From the NCBI GenBank assembly GCA_009843915.1, contig VYCM01000062.1, forward strand, positions 1 through 39,840: a stretch of DNA of 39,840 bases, given 5' to 3'. The DNA comes from Acidimicrobiaceae bacterium (GTDB lineage Bacteria > Actinomycetota > Acidimicrobiia > Acidimicrobiales > Aldehydirespiratoraceae). Position numbers and translations under genes: made by a program. Shown here in pieces: positions 12,187 through 27,549 of the stretch. The notes under the pieces were generated by a model. That model saw nothing but the letters and a program-made list of their open reading frames with translations, did not search any database and was not told where the DNA came from. Within the stretch, counting starts at the first letter, position 1. Each line of letters starts with the position of its first letter.

Positions 12187-14775
12187 CTAATTCTGGCCGC
12201 GGTCAATCCCAGCCGCGGCGCGCGCCAGCTCGAGGGCCTCGTCCAGACGATCGGCGTCCCTGCCCCCGGCCACGCAAAAGTCGGCCGCGGACTTCCCCCC
12301 GCCACCGATGGTCTTCTTGGCCTCGCCGATGAGATCGCCGGCGTGGAATCCGCCGCTCTCGGTGGCGGCCGCGGCCAGGGCCGCTCCCCCGGAGTCGAGC
12401 GCGGTGCCGAGAACCACGGCCTTCACTCCGTCGATTTCGCGTATCGACACCGCCAGGTCGCGCAGGCCGTCCCGGCCCACGTCATCAACACGAGCCACGA
12501 CCACGCCGTCCACGGCCGCGGCCGCCAACTCCGGCGCCCGGCCCAGCGCCACCCGACGCCGCAACTCGGCCACCTCGGCCCTCAGAGCTTTCGTCTCGCC
12601 CTGGCGCTTGACCACGCCGTCGGCCAACTCGGCCGCGGGTACTCCCAGCGACCGGGCCACGTCGTCTATGAGCGACTGCTGGCTGCGCAGCAGGGCCAGC
12701 GTGTCGTGGCCGGTGATGGCCTCCAACCGGCGCATGTTGGCGCCGATCGAGGCTTCAGAAGTGATGTGGAACGCCCCGATGTCGCCCAGGGCCCGCACAT
12801 GGGTGCCGCCGCACAACTCCACCGAATGGCGGCCGGCCTCGAGCACCCGCACCAGCTCGCCGTACTTCTCCCCGAAGAAGGCGATCGCGCCGACCTGCTG
12901 GGCGTGGTCGAAGGTGGTCTCGTAGTGGCGGCACGACTCGTTGCCGAGCACCTCGGAGTTGACCAGGTCCTCCACGTCGGTGATCTGCTCGGCCGTGAGG
13001 GCTTCGTAGTGGCTGAAGTCGAAACGGAGACGGTCGGGCCCGACCCAGGATCCCTGCTGCTTCACGTGGTCGCCGAGCACCTCGCGCAGCGCCCAGTGCA
13101 GGATGTGGGTAGCGGTGTGGTTGCGCCGGATGCCGGCCCGGCGCTCCGCGTCCACCATGGCGGTGACATCGTCCCCGACCCGCAGCTCGCCGTCGATGGG
13201 CTCGACGACGTGAACGTGGAGGTCGGGCACTCCGTAGACGGTGTCGACGACCCGCACCCGAGCCCCGGTCGCCTCGCAGGAGATCTCGCCGGTGTCTCCG
13301 ATCTGCCCGCCGCTCTCGGCGTAGAAAGGCGTGCGGTCCAGAACGACCCGGTCATCGGCGGCGTACAGCACACGGCCGACCGATGTCAGCTCGGCCCGGC
13401 CGGTGAACTCGGTGGGCCCGGCGGCCGAGAAGAGAGCCACGAACGGGGCCACGTCGTCGGCGGCAGCCACCGAGCGGGCACTGCGGGCCCGCTCCTGCTG
13501 CTGCGACATCGCGACCGCGAAGCCTTCGGTGTCGACCTCGACGCCTCTCTCGGCCGCGATCTCGACGGTGACCTCTAGAGGGAAGCCGTAGGTGTCGTGC
13601 AGCAGGAAGGCGACCTCACCGTCGATCGGCCGGCCGGGGCCGAGGGCGTCCAGGCGGCCGTCGAGGATGGTCTGCCCGGTGCGCAGCGTCTGGCGGAAGC
13701 GCTGCTCCTCGCGGTCGATCACGTCGCGCACGTAGCCGTGGTTGCGGACCAGGTCCGGGTAGGCCTCGGCCATCACCTCCACCACCGCGTCGACCATTCC
13801 CCCCATGACCGGCTCCTCCACCCCCAGCAGGTAGGCGTGGCGCACGGCTCGGCGGATGATGCGCCGCAGCACGTAGCCCCGGTCCTCGTTGGAGGGGAAC
13901 ACCCCGTCGCTGACCAGTAGCGACGTGGATCGGGCGTGGTCGGCGAGGATCCGGAGCGACACGTCTCGGGCCTCGGACTCGCCCAGCTTGGCACCGGTAA
14001 GGCGCTGGGCCGCGTCGAGCAGGACGACGAACTCGTCGGTCTCCCACACCGAATCGACCCCTTGGAGCACGGCCACGGTGCGCTCCAGGCCCAGACCGGT
14101 GTCGATCGAGGGCTTGGGCAGCGGGATCTCCTCACCGTCGGAAGTGCTCTCGAACTGCATGAACACCAGGTTCCAGACCTCGATGTAGCGCTCCTCGCCG
14201 CCGTGGGCGGGGCCGCCGCCGGGACCGTATTCGGGGCCCTTGTCCCAGAAGATCTCCGAGCACGGCCCGCAGGGGCCCACATCGGCCATCCGCCAGTAGT
14301 TGTCCTCGCCCAGGCGCTGGATCCGCTCTGCGGGCACGCCGACCTCGTCCCGCCAGATGGCCTCCGCCTCGTCGTCGCTTAGGTGCACGGTCACCCACAG
14401 CCTCTCCGGGTCGAGTCCGAACACTCCGGTGACGAGCTCCCAGGCCCAGGCGCAGGCGTCGGACTTGAAGTAGTCGCCGAAGCTGAAGTTGCCGAGCATC
14501 TCGAAGAAGGTCAGGTGGCGGGAGGTGCGCCCGATCTCGTCGAGGTCGTTGTGCTTGCCGCCGGCCCGCACGCACTTCTGCACGGTGACGGCCCGCGGGA
14601 AGGGCGGCTGCTGCTCGCCGGTGAAGTACGTCTTGAAGGGCACCATTCCGGCCACCGTGAACAGCAGCGTGGGGTCGTGGGGGATCAGGCTGGCCGACGG
14701 ATGGTGGGTGTGGCCCCGCTCGACGAAGAAGTCGACGAAGGCCTTGCGGACCTCGGCCGCGGTCATCGACCTCAT
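12187..14775 (-). CDS. alaS: Alanine--tRNA ligase
   Basis: Class II synthetase that charges tRNA-Ala and edits mischarged Ser/Gly. At 862 residues it is full length. The catalytic core shows RSMTAAEVRKAFVDFF, HHPSASLIPHDPTLLFTVAGM, HLTFFEMLGNFSFGDYFK (motif 2) and GLGLERTVAVLQG (motif 3). The editing domain metal site is complete: H553 and H557 in NHTATHILH, and C655 and H659 in ELCGGTHV. The C-terminal DHHA1 region has GEAKKTIGGGGKSAADFCVAGG. The ATG overlaps the preceding small gene by ATGA; an ATG three codons later is an alternative. No T-box-like leader is possible at this internal position. Confidence 0.98.
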   Translation of the reverse strand: MRSMTAAEVRKAFVDFFVERGHTHHPSASLIPHDPTLLFTVAGMVPFKTYFTGEQQPPFPRAVTVQKCVRAGGKHNDLDEIGRTSRHLTFFEMLGNFSFGDYFKSDACAWAWELVTGVFGLDPERLWVTVHLSDDEAEAIWRDEVGVPAERIQRLGEDNYWRMADVGPCGPCSEIFWDKGPEYGPGGGPAHGGEERYIEVWNLVFMQFESTSDGEEIPLPKPSIDTGLGLERTVAVLQGVDSVWETDEFVVLLDAAQRLTGAKLGESEARDVSLRILADHARSTSLLVSDGVFPSNEDRGYVLRRIIRRAVRHAYLLGVEEPVMGGMVDAVVEVMAEAYPDLVRNHGYVRDVIDREEQRFRQTLRTGQTILDGRLDALGPGRPIDGEVAFLLHDTYGFPLEVTVEIAAERGVEVDTEGFAVAMSQQQERARSARSVAAADDVAPFVALFSAAGPTEFTGRAELTSVGRVLYAADDRVVLDRTPFYAESGGQIGDTGEISCEATGARVRVVDTVYGVPDLHVHVVEPIDGELRVGDDVTAMVDAERRAGIRRNHTATHILHWALREVLGDHVKQQGSWVGPDRLRFDFSHYEALTAEQITDVEDLVNSEVLGNESCRHYETTFDHAQQVGAIAFFGEKYGELVRVLEAGRHSVELCGGTHVRALGDIGAFHITSEASIGANMRRLEAITGHDTLALLRSQQSLIDDVARSLGVPAAELADGVVKRQGETKALRAEVAELRRRVALGRAPELAAAAVDGVVVARVDDVGRDGLRDLAVSIREIDGVKAVVLGTALDSGGAALAAAATESGGFHAGDLIGEAKKTIGGGGKSAADFCVAGGRDADRLDEALELARAAAGIDRGQN

Positions 14776-17043: not shown

Positions 17044-18822
17044 TCAAGCCGGGGGAAGGACTCGCAGGCCTAGTTCTTGGAGGTGGGTGTCGGCTATGGG
17101 GCTGGGGGCGTCGGTGAGGGGGTCGGTGCCGGACTGGGTCTTGGGGAAGGCGATCACCTCGCGGATGTTCTCCTCCCCCACCAGCAGGGCGGCCAGCCGG
17201 TCCAGACCCACCGCGAAGCCGGCGTGGGGCGGGGCGCCGTAGCGGAAGGCGTCGAGCAGGAAGCCGAAGCGCTCCTGAGCCTCGCCGGCGGCGATCCCCA
17301 GCACTTCGAAGATGCGCTGCTGGACCTCGCGGCGGTGGATCCTCACGCTTCCCGATCCGAGCTCCCAGCCGTTGAGCACCAGATCGTAGGCCTGGCTGCG
17401 GATGTCGAGCAGGGCCTCGCCGGTGGGCGGACTGTCCGGCGACATGAGCACACCCAGATCGTCTTCGTGGGGCATGGTGAACGGGTGGTGCGACGGGATC
17501 GGCTCGCCCTCGGTCGTGAGTGCCTCGAACAGCGGGAAGTCCACCACCCACAAGTAGTTGAAGCTGCCGTCGTTGACCGGTGGACGGCCCAGTTCGAGGC
17601 GGAGCAGACCCAGCACGTGGCGCACCAGCGGGCGCTTGTCGGCCACCAGGAACACCATGTCGCCGGGCCGGGCGTCAAGGGCCTCGATGACGGCCGCGGC
17701 CTCGGCCTGCGACAGGAACTTGGCTACGCCGGCGTCGAGGGCTGAGCCGCCCTTCTCCGCGGCCACAACCCGCATCCAGGCCAGGCCCTTGGCCCCCCAC
17801 CGCTGGCACGTGGCCACCAGCTCGTCCACGCGGCTGCGGGGCAGCGAATCCGCTCCCCCGGTCAGGCATATCCCCTTCACGCAGGCCGCCTGGAACACCC
17901 GGGCCTGGGTCTCGGCGAAGATCGGGGTCAGCTCGGCCAGTTCCATCCCGAAGCGGGTGTCGGGCTTGTCCGAGCCGAAGCGCTCCATGGCATCGTGCCA
18001 GGTCATGCGATCGAACGTGCCGGGATCGTGTCCGGTCACCTCGATGGTGGCTTCGGCCACGGCCCTGGTCACGAAGCCGAGCACGTCGTCGCGGGTCACG
18101 AAAGACGCCTCCACGTCGAGCTGGGAGAACTCGAACTGGCGGTCGGCCCGGAGATCCTCGTCGCGCAGGCAGCGGGCGATCTGGTAGTAGCGGTCGACGC
18201 CCCCCACCATCGTGAGCTGCTTGAAGATCTGCGGGCTCTGGGGCAGGGCGTAGAAGGAGCCGGGCTCCTTGCGGGACGGAACCACGAAGTCGCGGGCCCC
18301 CTCCGGGGTGGAGGCGATCAGCATCGGGGTCTCCACCTCGACGAAGCCCTGGGCGTCCATGGCCCGGCGGATGGCTCCGTTGACTGCGGCCCGGGCCCGC
18401 AGGTTGTTCTGCATGCGGGGCCTGCGCAGATCGACGTAGCGGTGCCGCAGGCGCAGCGTCTCGTCCACCTCCGTGCGCTCGTCTAGGGGGAACGGCGGCG
18501 GCTCGGCCCGTGACAGGAGTTCCACCTCGCAGTCCTGCAGCTCGACCTCGCCGGTGGCCAGTGCGGGGTTGGCGGTGCCCTCGGGCCGCGGCCGGACCGT
18601 GCCGGTGATGCGGACCACGTACTCCGAGCGCAGGTCGCGGGCGCCGTCCACCACGCACTGCAGCACCCCGGAGTGGTCCCGCAGGTCGACGAAGGCCAAG
18701 TGTTCGCTGTGCTCGCGGCGGCGGTCCACCCATCCGCACACCGTCACGTTGCGGCCAGCGTCGGCAGAACCGAGGCGCCCACACAGATCGGTGCGCATGG
18801 CGGTGGCGTCGATCCCGGTCAT
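17044..18822 (-). CDS. aspS: Aspartate--tRNA(Asp/Asn) ligase
   Basis: Class IIb synthetase, 592 residues, with OB anticodon-binding domain, catalytic core and bacterial GAD insertion. GARDFVVPSRKEPGSFYALPQSPQ and YYQIARCLRDEDLRADRQFEF are motif 2, and the C-terminal GLDRLAALLVGEENIREVIAFPK is motif 3. In the anticodon domain the discriminator positions are His38 (RRREHSEHLAF) and Gly82 (RPRPEGTANP). These match non-discriminating enzymes, which also make Asp-tRNA(Asn) for amidation by GatCAB; this reading is inference. The ATG overlaps the hisS stop by ATGA, consistent with a hisS-aspS operon. Confidence 0.97.
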   Translation of the reverse strand: MTGIDATAMRTDLCGRLGSADAGRNVTVCGWVDRRREHSEHLAFVDLRDHSGVLQCVVDGARDLRSEYVVRITGTVRPRPEGTANPALATGEVELQDCEVELLSRAEPPPFPLDERTEVDETLRLRHRYVDLRRPRMQNNLRARAAVNGAIRRAMDAQGFVEVETPMLIASTPEGARDFVVPSRKEPGSFYALPQSPQIFKQLTMVGGVDRYYQIARCLRDEDLRADRQFEFSQLDVEASFVTRDDVLGFVTRAVAEATIEVTGHDPGTFDRMTWHDAMERFGSDKPDTRFGMELAELTPIFAETQARVFQAACVKGICLTGGADSLPRSRVDELVATCQRWGAKGLAWMRVVAAEKGGSALDAGVAKFLSQAEAAAVIEALDARPGDMVFLVADKRPLVRHVLGLLRLELGRPPVNDGSFNYLWVVDFPLFEALTTEGEPIPSHHPFTMPHEDDLGVLMSPDSPPTGEALLDIRSQAYDLVLNGWELGSGSVRIHRREVQQRIFEVLGIAAGEAQERFGFLLDAFRYGAPPHAGFAVGLDRLAALLVGEENIREVIAFPKTQSGTDPLTDAPSPIADTHLQELGLRVLPPA

Positions 18823-20096
18823 TGAGCCTCACCCTCCAGCACCTCGGCGACGGCCGCCACCACCTCTGTCTCCGCCACCCGCCGCTGTCCGCCACCGGGA
18901 CGCATGTCCCGAACGGTGACCGCCCCCTCGGCCTGCTCGTCGGGGCCGATGATCACGGCCGCCGCAGCGCCGGAGCGGTCGGCCCGCTTCATCTGGGCCT
19001 TCATGGACCGGCCGTCGAAGGCCCGGTCCACGCCCAGGCCGGCCTGCCGGAGCCGGTCGCAGAGCACGGCTGCGCTCTGGCCTCCGGCGGTGTCCACCAC
19101 GAACACCTCCACCGGGTCCGCAGCCGCGGCGAAGGCTCCCTCGGCGTCGCAGGCCAGCAGTATGCGGTCCGCTCCGAGGGCGAAGCCAATGCCCGGGGTC
19201 GGGGGGCCGCCCAGCTCCTCGACGAGCCCGTCGTAGCGCCCGCCGCCGCCCACGGCGTTCTGGGCGGTGTCGAGGGCGTCGGCCACGAACTCGAAGGTGG
19301 TCCGGGTGTAGTAGTCGAGGCCGCGCACCAGTCGGGGCGACACCTCGTAGGCCGCGTCGAGGCTGTCGAGGCCGGCCATCACGGCCGCGAAGTGCTCAGC
19401 CGACTCGCCCGACAGGAAGTCGGCCATCAGAGGCGCCTCCGCGATCACCGGCTGGTCCTGCTCCCGCTTGGAGTCGAGCACCCGCAGCGGGTTGCGCTCC
19501 AGGGTGAGTTGGGACTGCTCGGAAAGCTCGCCCCGCCGGCTCTGGAGGTAGTCGGTCAGCGCGGTGTCGTAGGCAGGACGGCTCTCGGAGTCGCCGAGAC
19601 TGTTGATGAGCAGACGCACCTGCTTCATGCCCAGGGCCTCGTAGAAGCGCAGGCCCAGTCCGATCACCTCCACGTCGGCGTGGGGGTCGTCGGTGCCGAG
19701 GGTCTCCACCCCGACCTGCTCGAACTGCCGGTAGCGGCCCGCCTGGGGGCGTTCGTAGCGGAACTGCGGACCGGAGTACCAGATCTTCCACGGAACCGTC
19801 GGCCGGTGCTCGGCGAAGGCCCGGCACACGCTGGCGGTGAGCTCGGGACGAAGAGCCAGGTGTCGGGGCGGGTCGCCCTTGTCGAAGAACTCGAACAACT
19901 CCTTGGTGACCACGTCATTGGACTCACCCAGGCGCTGGAACACTCCGAGGTCCTCGAAGATGGGCGACTCCAGCAGACCGAAGCCGGTCCGTTCGGCCAG
20001 ATCGGCGAACACGGCCACCAGCCGGCGCCGCCGCGCCGACTCCGGCGGCAGGATGTCGCGTGTGCCCACCGGGGCACGGAACAAGGGCTGGGCCAC
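18819..20096 (-). CDS. hisS: Histidine--tRNA ligase
   Basis: Class II synthetase of 425 residues. RAPVGTRDILPPESARRR is the usual N-terminus. Motif 2 reads WYSGPQFRYERPQAGRYRQF, the histidine-A loop is LVRGLDYYTRTTFEF, and motif 3 is GGGRYDGLVEELGG...GIGFALGADRI. A C-terminal anticodon-binding domain follows. The frame is open far upstream into relA sequence, but only the GTG at 20096 gives the conserved N-terminus and a normal length, with a GGGGG stretch before it. It sits 56 bases after relA and overlaps aspS by ATGA. Confidence 0.96.
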   Translation of the reverse strand: MAQPLFRAPVGTRDILPPESARRRRLVAVFADLAERTGFGLLESPIFEDLGVFQRLGESNDVVTKELFEFFDKGDPPRHLALRPELTASVCRAFAEHRPTVPWKIWYSGPQFRYERPQAGRYRQFEQVGVETLGTDDPHADVEVIGLGLRFYEALGMKQVRLLINSLGDSESRPAYDTALTDYLQSRRGELSEQSQLTLERNPLRVLDSKREQDQPVIAEAPLMADFLSGESAEHFAAVMAGLDSLDAAYEVSPRLVRGLDYYTRTTFEFVADALDTAQNAVGGGGRYDGLVEELGGPPTPGIGFALGADRILLACDAEGAFAAAADPVEVFVVDTAGGQSAAVLCDRLRQAGLGVDRAFDGRSMKAQMKRADRSGAAAAVIIGPDEQAEGAVTVRDMRPGGGQRRVAETEVVAAVAEVLEGEAQ

Positions 20097-20152
20097 GACC
20101 CCCGAGGCTACCGCCACCCCATAGGTCCAGATGGGAGTCCGCCGGATGGCTG

Positions 20153-22393
20153 CTAGGTCGCGCGGGCGTTGCGGCCGGGGACGACCCGGTAGGCCTCGAA
20201 GACGGCTTCCAGGGCGAGGACGCTGGACAGCACCGAGTCGAGCTGGGACAGGTCGGCCAGCTCGAACTCGAAGTCCATGCGGGCGATGAAGTCGTCGCCC
20301 GTCTCGGCCTTGGCGCTGATGATGCTCAGCCGGTGCTCGGCCAGCACGTCGGTCACGTCGCGCAGCAGGCCGGGCCGGTCCAGCCCCTGCACTGAGATCG
20401 TCGTCGAGAACTTGCCGGCGAAATCGGCGTCCCACTCGACCTCGATCAGCCGGTCGGTCTGGCCCTCAGCGAGCCCGATGGCGTTGACGCAGTCGTCCCG
20501 GTGCACCGACACGCCCCGGCCCCGGGTCACGAACCCGATGATCTCGTCGGGCGGCACCGGCGCGCAGCATTGCGACAGCCGGATGAGGATGTCGTCGAGG
20601 CCCTCAACGTGCACGCCCACGTCGGAGTCGCTGCGGAGATGCCCGGCACGCCGCCGCGCCGTAGTGGGAAGGCGGTCGCGATCGGCTTCGCCGTCGGCGT
20701 CGTCACCCTGCAGGGCCCGGGCGAACCGGCCTGCCACCGACGATGCCGACTGGTGACCCTCCCCTATGGCCAGGAACAGCAGATCGGTGGAGCTGTAGTT
20801 GAGCTGCTCGGCGATGGTGTCGAGCAGCTTGTCCTTCAGCAGGCGCTGGGCCGGCAGGCCCTCACGTCGCAGGGCCTGGATGAGGTCGTCGCGCCCGTTC
20901 TCGATGGCGTCGGCCCGGCGCTCGCGTGAGTACCACTGCTTGATCTTGTTGGCCGCCCGGCGGCTGGCCACGAATTTGAGCCAGTCCCGGCTCGGTCCCG
21001 CACCCTCGGTCCGTGTCGTGAAGACCTCCACCACGTCGCCCGACAGCAGGCGGCTGTCCAGCGCCACCAGCCGGCCGTTCACCTTGGCCCCGACGCAGGC
21101 GTGGCCCACGTCGGTGTGGATGCTGTAGGCGAAGTCCACCGGGGTGGCCCCCACCGGCAGCTCGATGACCTTGCCCTTGGGCGTGAACACGTACACCTCG
21201 TCGGTGTCGAGCTCCGTCTTGAGGTTGGACATGAACTCCGCTGGATCCGATGTCTCCTGCTGCCAGTCCACGATGCGCGACAGCCAGGCCATCTCCTCCG
21301 ACGGCGACGCGTCCTTGTACTCCCAGTGGGCGGCCACGCCGTGCTCGGCCCGCTCGTGCATCGCCCGGGTGCGGATCTGCACCTCGAGGGCCTTGCCCGC
21401 CGGTCCCACCACCGTCGTGTGCAGCGACTGGTAGAGGTTGAACTTGGGCATGGCTATGTAGTCCTTGAACCGGCCCTGCACCGGCCGCCACGTGGCGTGG
21501 ATGGAACCGAGGGCCGCGTAACAGTCCCGGACCGAGTCCACCAGCACGCGGATGCCGACCAGGTCGAAGATGTCCTCGAAGGACCGGCCCTTGACCACCA
21601 TCTTCTCGTAGATCGACCACAGGTGCTTGGGCCGTCCGGTCACCTCGGCCTTGATCCCCAACTCGGCCAGGCGGGACTCCACGTCGCCCAGCACCTGCTC
21701 CAGGTAGATGTCGCGCTCGGGGGCCCGCTGCTGCACCATCTGGTCGATCTCGGCGTAGCGGCGGGGCTCCAGCGCGGCGAAGGCGAGATCCTCCAGCTGC
21801 TGCCTGAGGTCCTGCATCCCGAGGCGGTGGGCCAGCGGCGCGTACACATCGAGGGTCTCGCGGGCGATGTAGTCCTGCTTGAACGCCGGCAGCACCGCCA
21901 GGGTGCGCAGGTTGTGCAGCCGGTCGGCCAGCTTGATGATCAGGACCCTCAGATCGCGGGCAATGGCGACGATCATCTTGCGCACCGACGCGGCCTGCTG
22001 CTGCTCGCGGGTGTCGTATTGGACCCGGTCCAGCTTGGTGACCCCGTCCACGATGCGGGTGACCTCGGGCCCGAAGTCGGTCTCGATGGTGGCCAGGGCC
22101 ACATCGGTGTCCTCCACGGCGTCGTGCAGCAGCGACGCCGCGATGGTCACATCGTCCAGCCCGAGCTTCGCCACGATGGTTGCGACGGCCAGCGGATGGC
22201 GGATGTAGGGCTCCCCCGACAGGCGCATCTGGCCCTCATGGGCCGCCGCCGCGGTGTCGAAGGCCCGCACGATCAGATCAGGCGAACGATCTCGATGGCG
22301 CTGGCGGTAGCACTCCAGCAGCGGGGCGATCTCGGCCGCCGCAGGCCGCCGGGCTCCGCGCCTCCAGGGCAGGACCCGGGTGACGGTGGCCAC
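20153..22393 (-). CDS. relA: Bifunctional (p)ppGpp synthetase/hydrolase (Rel)
   Basis: Makes and degrades the stringent-response alarmone. The 746 residues show the full Rel architecture. The HD hydrolase domain is intact (H52, H66, H90-D91, E94-D95 in LLHDAVEDT). The synthetase domain has the G-loop GRFKDYIAMPKFNLYQSLHT at about 307-326. A TGS domain (398-460, VYVFTPKGKVIELPVG...DFAYSIHTDVG) is followed by a helical region, a zinc-finger-like QCCAPVP at about 608-614, and a C-terminal ACT domain. The RFKD charge motif and intact HDxxED indicate a bifunctional enzyme rather than a pure synthetase. Start is GTG with GGGGAG upstream, 29 bases after secF. Confidence 0.97.
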   Translation of the reverse strand: MATVTRVLPWRRGARRPAAAEIAPLLECYRQRHRDRSPDLIVRAFDTAAAAHEGQMRLSGEPYIRHPLAVATIVAKLGLDDVTIAASLLHDAVEDTDVALATIETDFGPEVTRIVDGVTKLDRVQYDTREQQQAASVRKMIVAIARDLRVLIIKLADRLHNLRTLAVLPAFKQDYIARETLDVYAPLAHRLGMQDLRQQLEDLAFAALEPRRYAEIDQMVQQRAPERDIYLEQVLGDVESRLAELGIKAEVTGRPKHLWSIYEKMVVKGRSFEDIFDLVGIRVLVDSVRDCYAALGSIHATWRPVQGRFKDYIAMPKFNLYQSLHTTVVGPAGKALEVQIRTRAMHERAEHGVAAHWEYKDASPSEEMAWLSRIVDWQQETSDPAEFMSNLKTELDTDEVYVFTPKGKVIELPVGATPVDFAYSIHTDVGHACVGAKVNGRLVALDSRLLSGDVVEVFTTRTEGAGPSRDWLKFVASRRAANKIKQWYSRERRADAIENGRDDLIQALRREGLPAQRLLKDKLLDTIAEQLNYSSTDLLFLAIGEGHQSASSVAGRFARALQGDDADGEADRDRLPTTARRRAGHLRSDSDVGVHVEGLDDILIRLSQCCAPVPPDEIIGFVTRGRGVSVHRDDCVNAIGLAEGQTDRLIEVEWDADFAGKFSTTISVQGLDRPGLLRDVTDVLAEHRLSIISAKAETGDDFIARMDFEFELADLSQLDSVLSSVLALEAVFEAYRVVPGRNARAT

Positions 22394-22422: not shown

Positions 22423-23559
22423 TCACCGCTTCTTCTTTTTCTTTCGAGGACGCGGCGGTATCGCGCCCTGCGCCGACCCTGCCGCGGCTCGAGGAGCCGA
22501 CGCCGACCGCCGGGCCGTGGCCGAGCGCTTGGCGGCAGCCGCTTCGCCCAGCACCGCGTCGTCGGTCGCGACAGTGCGGGTGCCGGCCCCGGCTGCACCG
22601 CCGCGCAGACGGACCCGCTCGGCGATCTCGAGGTAGGCCGGCTCCCGTTCCTTCATCCTGGCCACCACCGCGGCTGCTACGAACAACGAAGAGTACGTGC
22701 CCACGATGATTCCCACCAGCAGAGCGATCGCGAACTCCTGAAGCGTGACCGCTCCCAGAACGAACGAACCGATCACCAGCATCGACGCCACCGGAATCAT
22801 CGACGTGATGGATGTGTTGACCGATCGCATCAGCACCTGGTTGAGCGACAGGTTCATCATCTCGGTGTAGGTGTAGCGACCGGTGGCCGAAACCCGGCCC
22901 ACCACCTCGCGCACCTTGTCGTAAACGACGATGGTGTCGTACAGCGAGTACCCCATGATCGTCAGGAACGCGATGACCGTGGCCGGGGTGATCTCGAACT
23001 GGAACACGGAGTAGAACCCGACCGACACCACGATGTCGTGGATCACCGCCAGCAGAGCGCCGACAGCCATCTTCCACTCGAGCCTTATGGCGATGTAGAC
23101 GGCGATGAGCGCGAAGAAGGCGATCAGAGCGTTGCGGGCCTTGCTGGTGATCTCCGCACCCCAGGAGGGTCCGACCGTGGTCACGCTTACGTCGTTTCCG
23201 GTGACGCCGGCTAGGTCGGCCAACGCGGCGCGCACGCCGTCCACCGCCTCGGGGGCCTCGATATCGGCCCGCACCCTGATGGTGTCGCCGCCGACCGTCT
23301 GGATCTTGGCGTCGGCCGCGCCCGTGCCCCTCAGCGCGTCCCGGGCCTCGGCTACCGACACCCCCGGCGCGGGGACCTCCCAGGAGGTGCCCCCCTCGAA
23401 CTCGATGCCCAGATCGACGCCGCGCAGCCCGAAGCTGGCCACACTCACCACCACGGCCACGAGGGAGCCGATAAGGGCACGCCGCCACAGCCGCGGGAAG
23501 TCGATCTGCTGCTCCCCGCGGTACAACGACGCCAGCACGCCCAACGGCCCGCCCCTCAT
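22423..23559 (-). CDS. secF: Protein translocase subunit SecF
   Basis: RND-type membrane subunit that, with SecD and YajC, uses proton motive force to assist Sec export. It shows a first transmembrane helix (about 28-45), LGIEFEGGTSWEV, then a periplasmic domain. Five helices follow, including AVIHDIVVSVGFYSVFQFEI and FLTIMGYSLYDTIVVYDKVRE, the classic SecF motifs. The tail is basic, ending PRPRKKKKKR. I chose the ATG at 23559 (378 residues), which overlaps the stop of a 12-codon mini-ORF by ATGA. A GTG at 23574 is possible but has no ribosome binding site. Confidence 0.93.
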   Translation of the reverse strand: MRGGPLGVLASLYRGEQQIDFPRLWRRALIGSLVAVVVSVASFGLRGVDLGIEFEGGTSWEVPAPGVSVAEARDALRGTGAADAKIQTVGGDTIRVRADIEAPEAVDGVRAALADLAGVTGNDVSVTTVGPSWGAEITSKARNALIAFFALIAVYIAIRLEWKMAVGALLAVIHDIVVSVGFYSVFQFEITPATVIAFLTIMGYSLYDTIVVYDKVREVVGRVSATGRYTYTEMMNLSLNQVLMRSVNTSITSMIPVASMLVIGSFVLGAVTLQEFAIALLVGIIVGTYSSLFVAAAVVARMKEREPAYLEIAERVRLRGGAAGAGTRTVATDDAVLGEAAAAKRSATARRSASAPRAAAGSAQGAIPPRPRKKKKKR

Positions 23560-23594
23560 GCGGTGGCCCCACACACTGTGACGGTCGCGGTCAT
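23556..23594 (-). CDS. 12-codon mini-ORF at the secD-secF junction
   Basis: The ATG at 23594 overlaps the secD stop by ATGA, and its TGA overlaps the secF ATG by ATGA. It encodes MTATVTVCGATA. The last 15 bases repeat the end of secD (TCATGCGGTGGCCCC on the plus strand at 23556-23570 and 23591-23605), so the mini-ORF looks like the product of a short duplication of the gene junction. It could hand ribosomes from secD to secF. It may have no function as a peptide. Confidence 0.4.
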   Translation of the reverse strand: MTATVTVCGATA

Positions 23595-25030
23595 GCGGTG
23601 GCCCCCGGCTGCTGTGCCCCCGCCATCTTCGCCGGTATGCCGAACCGGCCCGGATGGGAGTACAGGCCCGAACCGCGCGACATGAGGCCGATCAGCGGAC
23701 CCATGAAGAAGTACGTGGCCACCAGATCGAGGATCGTCGCCAGCCCCAGGTACAGGGCGAAGCCCCGGACCTGGCCCACGGTCAGGAAGTACAGCACCGC
23801 GGCTGCGATAAGCGACGCGAAGTCCGCCTTGACGATGGTGGAGAAGGCCACCGGGAAGGCCCGGTCCACGGCGGAGCGCAGCGTCCGGCCCGAGCGGACG
23901 TCCTCCTTGAGATGCTCGAAGTACACGATGTTGGAGTCGACCGACACGCCGATGGCGACGATGAGGCCGGTTACGCCGGCCAGGGTGAGCGCCAGCCCCT
24001 GGGTCTCGCCCAGCCAGGCGATGATCGCCCACAGCATGGCGCCGGACAGGCCGAGGCTGGCTATGGCCACCAGGCCGAGCAGGCGGTAGTAGGTCAGCAG
24101 GTACACCGACACCAGCCCGAGCCCGATGAGCCCCGCGAGGGCGCCGGCGGACAGCGCGTCGGTTCCCAGCGACGCCGACACGATCTGGCTCTGCTGAGCC
24201 TCCAACTCCACCGGCAGGGCGCCGTAGTCGAGCACGAGAGCCACATCGCGGGCCTCCTGCTCGCTGAACCCCCCGGAGATGGTGATGCCCGAACGCTCGA
24301 ACGGCTCGAAGAGGGCGTTGTCGGCCTGGACGGTGGGCGCGCTCACCACCTCATTGTCCAGTTCTATGGCCACCTGACCGGTAGGGCACGAAGGGGCCCG
24401 GCTGTGGCACCGGCGACTCACCTCGTTGAACAGGTCGATGCCCTCGGCCCCCGGCTTGAACGTGGGCGCCACATGCCAGCCGATGAAGGAATGGAACTGC
24501 GCGACAGCCCCCTCGAGCCCGTCACCCGCGACCGCGGTGGGGCCGAGCTGGTAGCGGAACGCGATGTTGCGGTCGTCGTCGTACTGGGGCAGAACGACAT
24601 CCGCTCCGGCGGCGACGTCGCCCTCGCTGAGCGCGAACAAGTCCAGCAGCGTCTCGTCGGTGTCCGCGCCCTCCAGCGAGCTCTCCGCCACCATGCTGAG
24701 CACCGGACGGAAGCGCAGCTCCGCGGTCTGGCCCACCAAGTCCAGGGCCCGCTGCTGCTCGTCGACGCCGGGCAGCTGGACGAGGATGTTGTCGCCCTGG
24801 GTGGAGATCTCGGGCTCGGCCACGCCCAGGCCGTCCACCCGGTTGCGGATGATCTCCACGGCCACGTCCAACTCCTCGGGCTCGGCGACGCGGGTCGGCT
24901 CCAGCACGACGCTGGCACCGCCCTGAAGATCTAGGCCGAGCAGGGGCTCGTTGCCGGCGGCCAGCGTGTAGACCACGCCCGCGACGGCGACCGCGACGAT
25001 GCCGATCACATAGACGAGCTTGCGGCGCAA
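23591..25030 (-). CDS. secD: Protein translocase subunit SecD
   Basis: Large partner of SecF in the SecDF-YajC complex, 479 residues. TM1 is at about 5-25, followed by the D1 hallmark LLGLDLQGGASVVLEP. A periplasmic P1 domain has IIRNRVDGLGVAEPEISTQGDNILVQLPGV. Next is FSEQEARDVALVLDYGALPVELE, and then TM2-6 with the conserved GVSVDSNIVYFEHLKEDVRSGRTLRSAVDRAF. Two Cys in the periplasmic part (RRCHSRAPSCPTG) are close enough to form a disulphide. The start is TTG at 25030 with GGGAGGG upstream. It lies 48 bases after yajC. Confidence 0.96.
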   Translation of the reverse strand: MRRKLVYVIGIVAVAVAGVVYTLAAGNEPLLGLDLQGGASVVLEPTRVAEPEELDVAVEIIRNRVDGLGVAEPEISTQGDNILVQLPGVDEQQRALDLVGQTAELRFRPVLSMVAESSLEGADTDETLLDLFALSEGDVAAGADVVLPQYDDDRNIAFRYQLGPTAVAGDGLEGAVAQFHSFIGWHVAPTFKPGAEGIDLFNEVSRRCHSRAPSCPTGQVAIELDNEVVSAPTVQADNALFEPFERSGITISGGFSEQEARDVALVLDYGALPVELEAQQSQIVSASLGTDALSAGALAGLIGLGLVSVYLLTYYRLLGLVAIASLGLSGAMLWAIIAWLGETQGLALTLAGVTGLIVAIGVSVDSNIVYFEHLKEDVRSGRTLRSAVDRAFPVAFSTIVKADFASLIAAAVLYFLTVGQVRGFALYLGLATILDLVATYFFMGPLIGLMSRGSGLYSHPGRFGIPAKMAGAQQPGATA

Positions 25031-25078: not shown

Positions 25079-25390
25079 CTAGCCGTCGTGCTCCTCGTCG
25101 GCGTCCTCGTCGTCGGCCTCTTCGGGGTCGGCGTCCGACGGGCCGGGGGTACGGCCGTGGATGGCATCCCGGGAGAGCTTCAATTCGACGTTGGGGGCTA
25201 CCTCCAGCCACACGACGGCGTCCTCCACTTCGGCCACGACACCGTGGATGCCGGCGTTGGTAACCACTTCGTCACCCGCCTCAAGGGAGCGGACCAGCTC
25301 CCGGCGAGCCTTCTCGCGCTTCTGCTGGGGGCGCAGCAGCAGGTAGTAGAGCGCGCCGAACATGAGGATGATGATGAGGAACTGTTCCAT
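25079..25390 (-). CDS. yajC: Preprotein translocase subunit YajC
   Basis: Small Sec accessory protein of 103 residues. A single transmembrane helix (MEQFLIIILMFGALYYLLL) leads directly into the family signature RPQQKREKARREL and a compact beta domain (GDEVVTNAGIHGVVAEVED). The C-terminus is strongly acidic (ADPEEADDEDADEEH). It starts with ATG nine bases after tgt and precedes secD, the classic tgt-yajC-secD-secF order. Confidence 0.95.
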   Translation of the reverse strand: MEQFLIIILMFGALYYLLLRPQQKREKARRELVRSLEAGDEVVTNAGIHGVVAEVEDAVVWLEVAPNVELKLSRDAIHGRTPGPSDADPEEADDEDADEEHDG

Positions 25391-25399
25391 GCCGCGAGC

Positions 25400-26512
25400 C
25401 TACGCCCAGATGGACCCCACGCCAGCGCGCAGGTCGTCGAGGGTGCCGGTGCGCACCGCGGTACGCACCTGATCCATCAGCCGCAGCAACCAGGCCAGAT
25501 TGTGCAGGGTGATGAGCCGGGCCGCGGTCGGCTCATGGGTGGCCAGCAGATGGCGGAGGTAGCCGCGCGACCACCGGCCGGCCGGGCTCCCGGGGAACGA
25601 CGGATCGAGCGGTTCATCGCTGCCGGCATGGCGGGCCGCAACCAGGTTGTAGCGGCCCGCGTCGGACAGGACCGTGCCGTGACGACCGAGACGGGCCGGC
25701 AGGACGCAGTCGAACATGTCCACACCCCGCGCCACCGACTCCACAAGGCCCACGGGGTCGCCCAGGCCCATGAAGTAGCGGGGCCGGTCGGCAGGCAGAG
25801 GAGCCATGCACGCATCCAGAGCATCGAGCATCGCCGGTTGATCCTCGCCCACCGACAGCCCGCCCACCGCGTAGCCGTCGAACCCGACCTCCAAGGTGCG
25901 TTGGGCTGACTCCAGCCGCAGGGCCGCGTCCGCTCCGCCCTGCACGATGCCGAACTGGCACTGGCGTTGGGGCGCGTCCGGGTGGGCCAGGAAGGCGTCG
26001 CGGCCCCGCCGGGCCCAGAGGGCGGTGCGGCGGACTGCTTCGGAGAGAACGGGCCGCTCAGCCACCGCGGAGGGGCACACGTCGAGCACCATGGTGATGT
26101 CGGCGCCGATCAGAGCCTGAAGACGCACGGCGTCCTCTGGGGTGAGCCGGCACATCGAGCCGTCGTACACCGACTTGAAGCGGGCCCCGTCGTCGTCCAC
26201 TTCCGGGTCGAGCGAATGGATCTGGTAGCCGCCTGAATCGGTGAGCACATGGCCCGACCAGGCCGCGAAACCGTGGATCCCGCCGAGCTGAGCCACGGTC
26301 TCCGCGCCGGGACGCAGCATCAGGTGGTAGGTGTTGGCCAGCACCACCTCCACGCCCAGTTCCTCCAGGTCGCCCGAGTGAAGGTGCGGAACCGCCCCCC
26401 GGGTGCCGACCGGCATGAAGCAGGGAGTCGAGAACGTTCCCCGCGGCGTGGTCACCGTTCCGGCGCGAGCGGCGCCGTCGGTCGCTTCGACCGTGAAGAC
26501 GGCCGCAGTCAC
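25400..26512 (-). CDS. tgt: tRNA-guanine transglycosylase, zinc-cysteine motif replaced
   Basis: Exchanges guanine-34 for preQ1 in GUN-anticodon tRNAs, the first tRNA step of queuosine synthesis. The 370 residues match the family. Catalytic parts are intact: HVLTDSGGYQIHSL, DITMVLDVCPS, CQFGIVQGG, YAVGGLSVGE and the nucleophile Asp in FDCVLPARLGRHGTV. Where the family has C-x-C-x2-C, this protein has F306-P-G308-S-P-A311 in PLDPSFPGSPAGRWSRGYLRHL. The fourth ligand, His337 in ITLHNL, is kept at the exact 26-residue spacing known from Zymomonas Tgt. The start is the GTG at 26512, overlapping the queA stop (GTGA); a longer open frame runs into queA and is not used. Confidence 0.93.
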   Translation of the reverse strand: MTAAVFTVEATDGAARAGTVTTPRGTFSTPCFMPVGTRGAVPHLHSGDLEELGVEVVLANTYHLMLRPGAETVAQLGGIHGFAAWSGHVLTDSGGYQIHSLDPEVDDDGARFKSVYDGSMCRLTPEDAVRLQALIGADITMVLDVCPSAVAERPVLSEAVRRTALWARRGRDAFLAHPDAPQRQCQFGIVQGGADAALRLESAQRTLEVGFDGYAVGGLSVGEDQPAMLDALDACMAPLPADRPRYFMGLGDPVGLVESVARGVDMFDCVLPARLGRHGTVLSDAGRYNLVAARHAGSDEPLDPSFPGSPAGRWSRGYLRHLLATHEPTAARLITLHNLAWLLRLMDQVRTAVRTGTLDDLRAGVGSIWA

Positions 26513-27549
26513 ATCGGCTCCGGGCACGGCTCGGACCGGGACACGAGCATGGCGTCGCCGAAGGACAGGAACCGGTAACCGTGCTCGAGTGCGGCGTCGT
26601 ACAGCGTTCGCCAGCGAGGCCCGATGAAGGCGTCGAGCAGGCACAGGAGGGTTGAGCGGGGCAGGTGGAAGTTCGTCATCAGAGCATCCACGACACGCCA
26701 TTCATACGACCTGCGGATGAACAGGCTGGTGCGCCCGGACGCCTCGCCGGTGGCTGCCCAGGCCTCCAGGCACCGCACGACGGTCGTGCCCACGGCCACC
26801 ACCCGCTCGGCCCGGTCCAACGCCTGCCGGACGCCGGCGGGCACGTGGTACTGCTCGGTGTGCATGTCGTGGTCGTCGAGACGTTCGGCGGTGATGGGCC
26901 GGAACGTGTCGAGTCCGACCGCCAACTCGACCGCCACCACCTCGGCGCCGGTGTTGCGCACCCGGCCCAGGAGCTCCTCGGTGAAATGCAGGCCTGCGGT
27001 GGGGGCCGCGGCCGAGACAGGACGCCGGCCGTACACGGTCTGGTAGCGCTCGGGGTCGTCGATCCCGGCCGTGATGTAGGGCGGCAGGGGCACGGCACCC
27101 ACCTCGTCCAGCACTTGCAGCAGCGGCCGCCCTCCGGTGTGGACCCGGACCACTCGCCGTCCCTCGCCGAGATCGTCCCGGATCTCCACGGTCGCGCCGG
27201 TGGCGCCGGTGTCCGGTGCAACCACCTCTCCGGGCCGCAGGCGGCGAGACGGCCTTACCAGCGCCTCCCAGTCACCGTCGGCGCGCTCGTGAAGCAGCAG
27301 CACCTCGACCGCGCCACCGGTGACCCGCCGCATCCGCAGGCGGGCGGGCAGCACTCGGGTGTCGTTGACGACGATCACATCACCGGGTCCCAGCAGGTCC
27401 GGCAGGTCGCTGACCCGGAGGTGGGAAATCCCGCCGGCGCCGTCGACCAGCAGGCGGGCCTGGTCGCGTAGCGGTGACGGCGACTGGGCTATGGCGCCGG
27501 GCGGCAGGTCGTAGTCGAGATCGGCCGGAATGGTCGGCGGCGCCGTCAC
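26509..27549 (-). CDS. queA: S-adenosylmethionine:tRNA ribosyltransferase-isomerase
   Basis: Adds the epoxycyclopentanediol precursor from SAM to preQ1-modified tRNA, giving epoxyqueuosine. The 346 residues match. Motifs: DYDLPPGAIAQSP at the N-terminus, VIVVNDTRVLPARL, LPPYITAGIDDPERYQTVYGR, AAPTAGLHFTEELL, VGLDTFRPI and the closing WRVVDALMTNFHLPRSTLL. It starts with GTG 30 bases after ruvB and overlaps tgt by GTGA. The pair acts consecutively in queuosine synthesis. Genes for preQ1 synthesis or salvage and for queG/queH are not in this window. Confidence 0.96.
   Translation of the reverse strand: MTAPPTIPADLDYDLPPGAIAQSPSPLRDQARLLVDGAGGISHLRVSDLPDLLGPGDVIVVNDTRVLPARLRMRRVTGGAVEVLLLHERADGDWEALVRPSRRLRPGEVVAPDTGATGATVEIRDDLGEGRRVVRVHTGGRPLLQVLDEVGAVPLPPYITAGIDDPERYQTVYGRRPVSAAAPTAGLHFTEELLGRVRNTGAEVVAVELAVGLDTFRPITAERLDDHDMHTEQYHVPAGVRQALDRAERVVAVGTTVVRCLEAWAATGEASGRTSLFIRRSYEWRVVDALMTNFHLPRSTLLCLLDAFIGPRWRTLYDAALEHGYRFLSFGDAMLVSRSEPCPEPM

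Follow-up and report, generated by a model that had tools for sequence, protein, structure and literature searches.

A tRNA-guanine transglycosylase of Acidimicrobiia without its zinc cysteines: a clade-wide and recurrent loss in an enzyme that is most likely metal-free and active

Bacterial tRNA-guanine transglycosylase (Tgt) is said to require zinc (PMC9508795, citing E. coli work of 1995) and its zinc-binding residues are called highly conserved (PMC4425180), both according to the accessible parts of these papers. Whether zinc is needed at all is the question raised by a tgt gene of an Acidimicrobiaceae bacterium (assembly GCA_009843915.1, contig VYCM01000062.1) whose product has lost the three cysteines of the zinc site. 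The gene lies in a stretch of 39,840 nucleotides, hereafter the window, and a first-pass annotation had left three options for the enzyme: folding without zinc, use of another ligand set, or altered partner or substrate use. No report of a zinc-less Tgt was found in the open-licence literature; a subscription journal or a database may hold such a note. Zinc terms were absent from PMC13416341.

The window protein belongs to the bacterial Tgt family, as it matched TIGR00430 with 366.5 bits (cut-off 306.75) and PF01702 with 398.9 bits. The PF01702 match was the only one in the genome, showing that tgt is single and that there is no second, zinc-type Tgt. Counted from the first ATG, the open reading frame has 433 codons (25400-26701, minus strand); translation probably begins at codon 64, a GTG (26510-26512) that shares bases with the queA stop codon (26509-26511). 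The genes of the locus are arranged in the order queA-tgt-yajC-secD-secF on the minus strand (Table 1). The same window codes at 17044-20435 (minus strand) for a class II synthetase of the D/K/N type with a GAD domain (aspartyl type) and for a histidyl-tRNA synthetase; the tRNAs of these two carry queuosine, and the co-location with queA-tgt probably reflects mere gene order of the clade.

Table 1 Coordinates of the tgt locus and of functional positions in the window protein
Feature	Coordinates	Strand	Basis
tgt coding sequence, 370 aa, likely GTG start to stop	25400..26512	-	4-base overlap with queA stop codon and homology
Former zinc knuckle, F306/G308/A311 replacing C-x-C-x2-C	25580..25597	-	phmmer alignment to Z. 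mobilis Tgt
H337, fourth zinc-ligand position, kept	25502..25504	-	26 residues past A311
Post-knuckle helix (model), carrying dimer hot-spot Y318 and H321	25541..25567	-	alignment, predicted structure
Catalytic Asp (Z. mobilis Asp102), D155 of the 433-codon ORF	26237..26239	-	alignment; PMC4425180, PMC6165067 (accessible parts)
Catalytic Asp, nucleophile (Z. mobilis Asp280), D331 of the 433-codon ORF	25709..25711	-	alignment; PMC4425180 (accessible parts)
queA, next queuosine-pathway enzyme, directly upstream of tgt	26509..27549	-	NF001140 351.8 bits, cut-off 324
yajC, directly downstream of tgt	25079..25390	-	TIGR00739 89.5 bits, cut-off 44.2
secD	23591..25030	-	TIGR01129 304 bits, cut-off 244.4
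secF	22423..23574	-	TIGR00966 271 bits, cut-off 160

In a phmmer alignment, the three zinc cysteines of Z. mobilis Tgt were opposite to Phe, Gly and Ala of the window protein and the flanks were conserved. In the numbering of the 370-aa protein these are F306 (TTC, 25595-25597), G308 (GGG, 25589-25591) and A311 (GCC, 25580-25582); instead of the three Cys and one His of zinc-binding Tgts, the window protein has F, G, A and H. The first-pass annotation had named the same four residues; its residue numbers are right when counted from the GTG start, its coordinates are right as well, and the alignment to Z. mobilis also confirmed its spacing of the histidine (26 residues after the third position) and its conserved flanks. 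Its statement that the catalytic motifs are intact applies to the catalytic aspartates and not to the usual P-T-R, which is P-A-R in the window (25691-25699, after MFDCVL). This Ala is common to the window and six other Tgts, all of the same family; the remaining rows counted have Thr at that position, rarely Ser.

A trivial explanation would be that one contig was wrongly assembled or base-called. Genomes were taken from the neighbourhood (61) and from the order (148), two overlapping sets with 146 distinct genomes having a Tgt match. The zinc region was readable in 140 of these 146, namely in the window and in 139 further Tgts from as many genomes. Not counted were L138 and L137 (a second fragment and a truncated Tgt of genome G031) and five order genomes with partial Tgts only (G097, G133, G134, G156 and G164). 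L085, which ends at a contig edge before the His, was scored as His absent; it is without positions 1 and 3 anyway. C, C, C and H were found in 65 of the 140 Tgts, and the other 75, window included, were without the full set. The three cysteines were missing from each of the 33 further Tgts readable in the window's family, 14 of which belong to the window's own genus and 19 to other genera. The nearest relative, L129, comes from a separate genome and has a protein 98% identical and a site identical to that of the window. Since 33 of 33 family Tgts from separate genomes share the loss, chance and local sequencing error are excluded; the assembly error is refuted by independent genomes and its probability is negligible. 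Of the 48 families of the order, 32 had all four ligands, 16 had at most two and none was mixed. Alignment of Tgts from related Acidimicrobiia, the check proposed in the first-pass annotation, showed that the loss is clade-wide. Its argument against a simple base error was borne out by the 33 family members, and what it had treated as a singular case is a recurrent trait, found clade-wide and in several phyla.

The occurrence outside the class was analysed with 80 related loci from species-representative genomes, a biased sample since they had been selected for their resemblance to the window protein. The full ligand set was missing in 32 of the 80, four of these being Acidimicrobiia-like rows. 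The other zinc-less loci include Caulobacter, Bradyrhizobium, Mesorhizobium, Devosia and Pelagibacteraceae and one member each of Balneolaceae, Chlorobiaceae, Verrucomicrobiales and Falkowbacteria. In the Hyphomicrobiales family around L075, Tgt was present in 116 of 119 genomes, and all 50 Tgts read, the best-scoring 30 of the 116 and 20 picked among the remainder, were without positions 1 and 3. The record of L075 (CAMDOY010000217.1) bears the title Rhizobium sp., which is doubtful given the 92% identity between one Tgt of the family and an Alsobacter Tgt; hence the group is named here only as a Hyphomicrobiales family. Alphaproteobacteria are not uniformly affected, as CCCH was found in Paracoccus and in five of the six Sphingomonadales read. 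A search for phage Tgts added nothing; the match H36 resembles bacterial DNA labelled as phage. Two labels call for caution: L033 (CAMCTW010000008.1) is titled Bifidobacterium breve, a doubtful name since its Tgt falls among the Acidimicrobiia rows, and L256 (CAKLQH020000002.1), filed as an Acinetobacter phage, looks bacterial; its genes include queA, tgt, yajC, secD and secF, and the Tgt is of the zinc type.

The number of losses was estimated from trees built without the zinc columns. FastTree with 250 rows required at least 12 state changes, of which well-supported branches enforce 9, compared to 82 with shuffled labels. A more careful IQ-TREE tree under a mixture model, with 97 rows after omission of 12 long-branch or cut rows, gave 10 changes with a bootstrap range of 10-12 from a bootstrap that had not settled; 6 changes were forced by starred branches and the shuffled mean was 26. 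With zinc regain disallowed, 12 to 16 losses were obtained. Fewer losses inside Acidimicrobiia, together with gene transfer, are possible because the branching order there is only partly resolved. The Hyphomicrobiales rows of the tree, which does not contain S. meliloti, group far from the window's group. These findings show that the loss is real, clade-wide and recurrent. Among L016 (genome G060) and L007, L141 and L171, one family has C-H-S-H and its tree sister F-H-S-H; C-H-S-H, with Cys still at position 1, is possibly an intermediate of ligand loss.

The way the ligands were replaced bears on the question of whether a metal is still bound. In the 250-row alignment, counted with the window and without the truncated L137, four ligands were kept in 113 rows, three in none, two in 15, one in 115 and none in 7, which gives 137 zinc-less sequences (79 Acidimicrobiia and 58 others). 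Position 1 of the 79 zinc-less Acidimicrobiia is Phe (47), Trp (15) or Leu (8) in 70 rows, position 3 is Ala in 55, and the residue before the His is Leu in 77. A Pro precedes position 3 in 67 of the 79 and in 0 of the 69 zinc-type Acidimicrobiia rows. The His is kept in all 79, with a hydrophobic residue at position 1 in 72 and another residue there in 7. Position 2 is variable, being Gly in the window, Ala, Asn, His, Lys, Gln or Thr in relatives and Asp or Glu in 33 of the 79. The 58 zinc-less rows outside the class have Ser at position 1 in 46 cases and kept the His in 14; Hyphomicrobiales have mostly Ser at position 1, often Cys at position 2, Ala, Ser or Thr at position 3 and usually no His. 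As read from these residues, two replacement recipes are visible, neither of which has an obvious tetrahedral metal site. The second option of the first-pass annotation was that a metal is still bound by other ligands, for example by His337, an Asp or Glu at position 2 and a backbone or partner ligand. The strictly kept His of the Acidimicrobiia leaves room for a weak or non-tetrahedral metal site, and the acidic residues at position 2 would suit such a set. Against it stand the Gly at position 2 of the window and the free variation there in others, the Phe, Trp, Leu and Ala that dominate positions 1 and 3, the shortened or lengthened loop of some relatives (L168, L218 and L222) and the frequent loss of the His outside the class, including most Hyphomicrobiales read. 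We consider this option very unlikely.

A different possibility is that the Tgt is decaying, or that it has lost the transglycosylase activity and taken over another role, for example as an inactive QTRT2-like partner subunit. Catalytic positions were counted in 133 of the 137 zinc-less sequences, namely those whose four ligand columns contain no gap. Asp stood at the positions of Asp102 and Asp280 in 133 of 133, the base-pocket Val was likewise kept in all 133, and only one of the 133 deviated from Gln at the position of Gln203. The labels Gln203, Gly230, Leu231, Arg286 and Arg289 follow what we take to be the Z. mobilis numbering. The pocket of the window protein is GGLSVG (GGLAVG-like), and its Val and the next Gly were invariant in the 246 sequences counted; by the rule given in the accessible text of PMC11570991 a pocket with Val is of the preQ1 type. 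QTRT2 has the opposite pattern, as it lost the catalytic Asp, replaced by Glu at the position of Asp280 (PMC6165067), and kept the zinc (PMC6165067, PMC4425180; accessible parts of both), whereas the window protein kept this Asp. Pairwise dN/dS of the window tgt with ten relatives (dS 0.26-1.22) was 0.16-0.25; an eleventh relative, the 98% identical L129, gave 0.32 from very few changes. The gene is under purifying selection.

Residues of the dimer hot spot are conserved as well. In the homodimer of Z. mobilis Tgt, Phe92, Trp326, Tyr330 and His333 form an aromatic hot spot (PMC5395182, as far as accessible). Three of these, Trp326, Tyr330 and His333, follow shortly after the third cysteine, where the next helix begins or within it, and correspond to W314 (25571-25573, just before the helix), Y318 (25559-25561) and H321 (25550-25552) of the window protein. 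Every zinc-less row had the equivalents of Tyr330 and His333 (79 of 79 Acidimicrobiia and 58 of 58 others), and the position of Trp326 was Trp, Tyr or Phe in 78 of the 79 Acidimicrobiia. The AlphaFold model of the window protein had a mean pLDDT of 96.1, with 96 and 98 in the two knuckle blocks, and a TM score of 0.95 to Z. mobilis Tgt; the best matches had an rmsd of 1.3-1.4. A prediction made likewise for L013, a relative of the zinc type, shows a short loop helix which is absent in the window protein. These models speak only for the fold, since AlphaFold includes no metals and zinc-type and zinc-less sequences were mixed in both alignments.

The gene content allows a further look at decay. 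No Tgt match was found in 33 of the 148 order genomes, so the queuosine pathway is dispensable in the order; among the 114 order genomes at least 90% complete and with low contamination, 26 were without Tgt and, therefore, the whole queuosine step is often lost. Moreover, QueF, QueH, QPTR and QueT had no match in the 16 genomes of the genus, which leaves the genus without a known preQ1 transport family. QueC matches reached the Pfam cut-off in 15 of the 16, and in 15 of the 16 they spanned only about 50-58 of 210 positions. The match in the own genome was rejected as QueC, the protein being TilS, and only G014 had a full-length QueC match (3.6e-26). The order genomes without Tgt and the lack of QueF and of a known preQ1 transport family in the genus would fit decay or a lost function. 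On the other side, the Tgt is the sole one of its genome and is accompanied by QueA and QueG. QueG of the own genome scored 237.7 bits (NCBIfam cut-off 200) and just below the Pfam cut-off; the Pfam QueG domain was detected in 14 of the 16 genus genomes, in 10 above the cut-off. QueA was present in 13 of 15 probed genomes with Tgts short of the full ligand set and absent from the Pelagibacteraceae and Falkowbacteria genomes. With the low dN/dS and the invariant aspartates, decay or a new role appears very unlikely. A switch to queuine was rejected in view of the retained preQ1-type pocket and the presence of QueA and QueG; for the same reasons the third option of the first-pass annotation, altered partner or substrate use, had no support. 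Judged from the gene content of these draft genomes, preQ1 is likely salvaged through some transporter and then processed by QueA and QueG.

An indication of function comes from S. meliloti. Tgt of strain Ak57 has S, C, T and N at the four positions, that is one ligand, and queA is directly upstream. According to the accessible text of PMC3568095, a tgt insertion mutant of strain 1021 and mutants of queC and queF all fail to produce one and the same host-cell effect and show a symbiotic impairment; preQ1 restores this effect in queC and queF mutants and not in tgt or queA mutants. The queA mutant has little or no symbiotic defect, which speaks against a simple reading; furthermore, the evidence consists of phenotypes, not of queuosine in tRNA (PMC3568095, same parts). 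With the Tgt read in Ak57 and the mutants made in 1021, the reported pattern is that predicted by a working Tgt. The 2013 paper places tgt and queA of S. meliloti on the main chromosome (PMC3568095, accessible text); the entry L253 (CP090106.1), titled pSymB, is 3.7 Mb in size, carries tgt and queA and is probably mislabelled. As a lead only, Tgt of B. henselae is reported in the accessible part of PMC11570991 to partially complement E. coli without tgt; we make no claim on its zinc state.

The loss could also be adaptive, selected under scarce zinc as in the case of zinc-free ribosomal protein paralogues. The alanyl-tRNA synthetase encoded in the window (12187-14775, minus strand) keeps the editing-domain motifs HTATH and CGGTH, which we take to be zinc motifs; thus, zinc ligands were not lost wholesale in this genome. 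Besides, tgt is single copy here rather than a paralogue used under stress. Both points weaken the idea of zinc sparing, which would fit the repeated loss, fixed by family, and the zinc-free forms known of other translation proteins (PMC3087516, PMC13343924, as far as accessible). We regard it as unlikely.

Among the three options of the first-pass annotation, folding without zinc is best supported, by the family-wide loss, the purifying selection, the conserved residues and, as far as a prediction goes, the model fold. It is highly probable, judging from the sequences, that the window protein is a working bacterial Tgt that exchanges guanine-34 for preQ1 in tRNAs with GUN anticodons and no longer uses the structural zinc. 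The metal may once have anchored the helix that builds the homodimer interface. In Acidimicrobiia a hydrophobic plug at the first cysteine position (Phe, and Trp or Leu in many sister groups) would pack at the former place of the metal, Ala at the third position and the Pro-Ala before the next helix would join in this packing, and plug and Pro-Ala would hold loop and helix now. Hyphomicrobiales would have found another recipe, mostly with Ser at position 1, Ala, Ser or Thr at position 3 and usually no His. Because the ligands were lost in the family and in several unrelated groups and the enzyme looks fully functional, zinc is probably optional for Tgt, and the zinc-less enzyme is most likely metal-free and active. 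We lean, with some reserve, towards a wider reading: Tgt would have become zinc-independent at least 10 times in several phyla by at least two structural recipes (in Acidimicrobiia an aromatic or aliphatic plug beside a retained His, in Hyphomicrobiales a core of small residues, usually without the His), zinc would be a replaceable scaffold of the dimer helix and not an enzyme requirement, and a considerable proportion of the Tgts from the environment would not be metalloenzymes.

This suggests that the stated zinc requirement is contradicted, since entire families apparently manage without it, as do rhizobia like S. meliloti, and zinc is weakened as a general argument that ties queuosine to metal status. 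The rules behind curated protein databases may already attach conditions to the zinc note of Tgt; automatic annotation may copy "zinc cofactor" to every member, which calls for a warning. The natural zinc-less enzymes could be used for testing the role of the knuckle in dimer formation and tRNA binding. Moreover, they have an altered loop beside the dimer interface, which is a target of work on Tgt inhibitors.

Compared to the Tgts of Z. mobilis and E. coli (TIGR00430), the fold, the catalytic aspartates, the base pocket and the dimer hot-spot residues are the same, and the operon with queA, yajC, secD and secF is shared with bacterial Tgt; the difference is that the three zinc cysteines are replaced in the window protein, which is probably metal-free. 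Like the window protein, the Tgts of S. meliloti and other Hyphomicrobiales have at most two of four ligands left and the catalytic residues kept, but their replacements are mostly Ser, Cys is often found at position 2 and the His is usually gone. In glutamyl-tRNA synthetase, too, a structural zinc was lost in many bacteria and other side-chain contacts substitute for it (PMC4381286, accessible part); this is another enzyme with another fold, and its zinc dispensability was tested at the bench (same source), whereas that of Tgt is read from sequences. Zinc-free versions of translation-related proteins are also described for the ribosomal proteins S4, L31 and L36 (PMC3087516, PMC13343924, accessible parts), but those of L31 and L36 are alternative proteins made under zinc limitation, whereas Tgt is one orthologue that changes its state.
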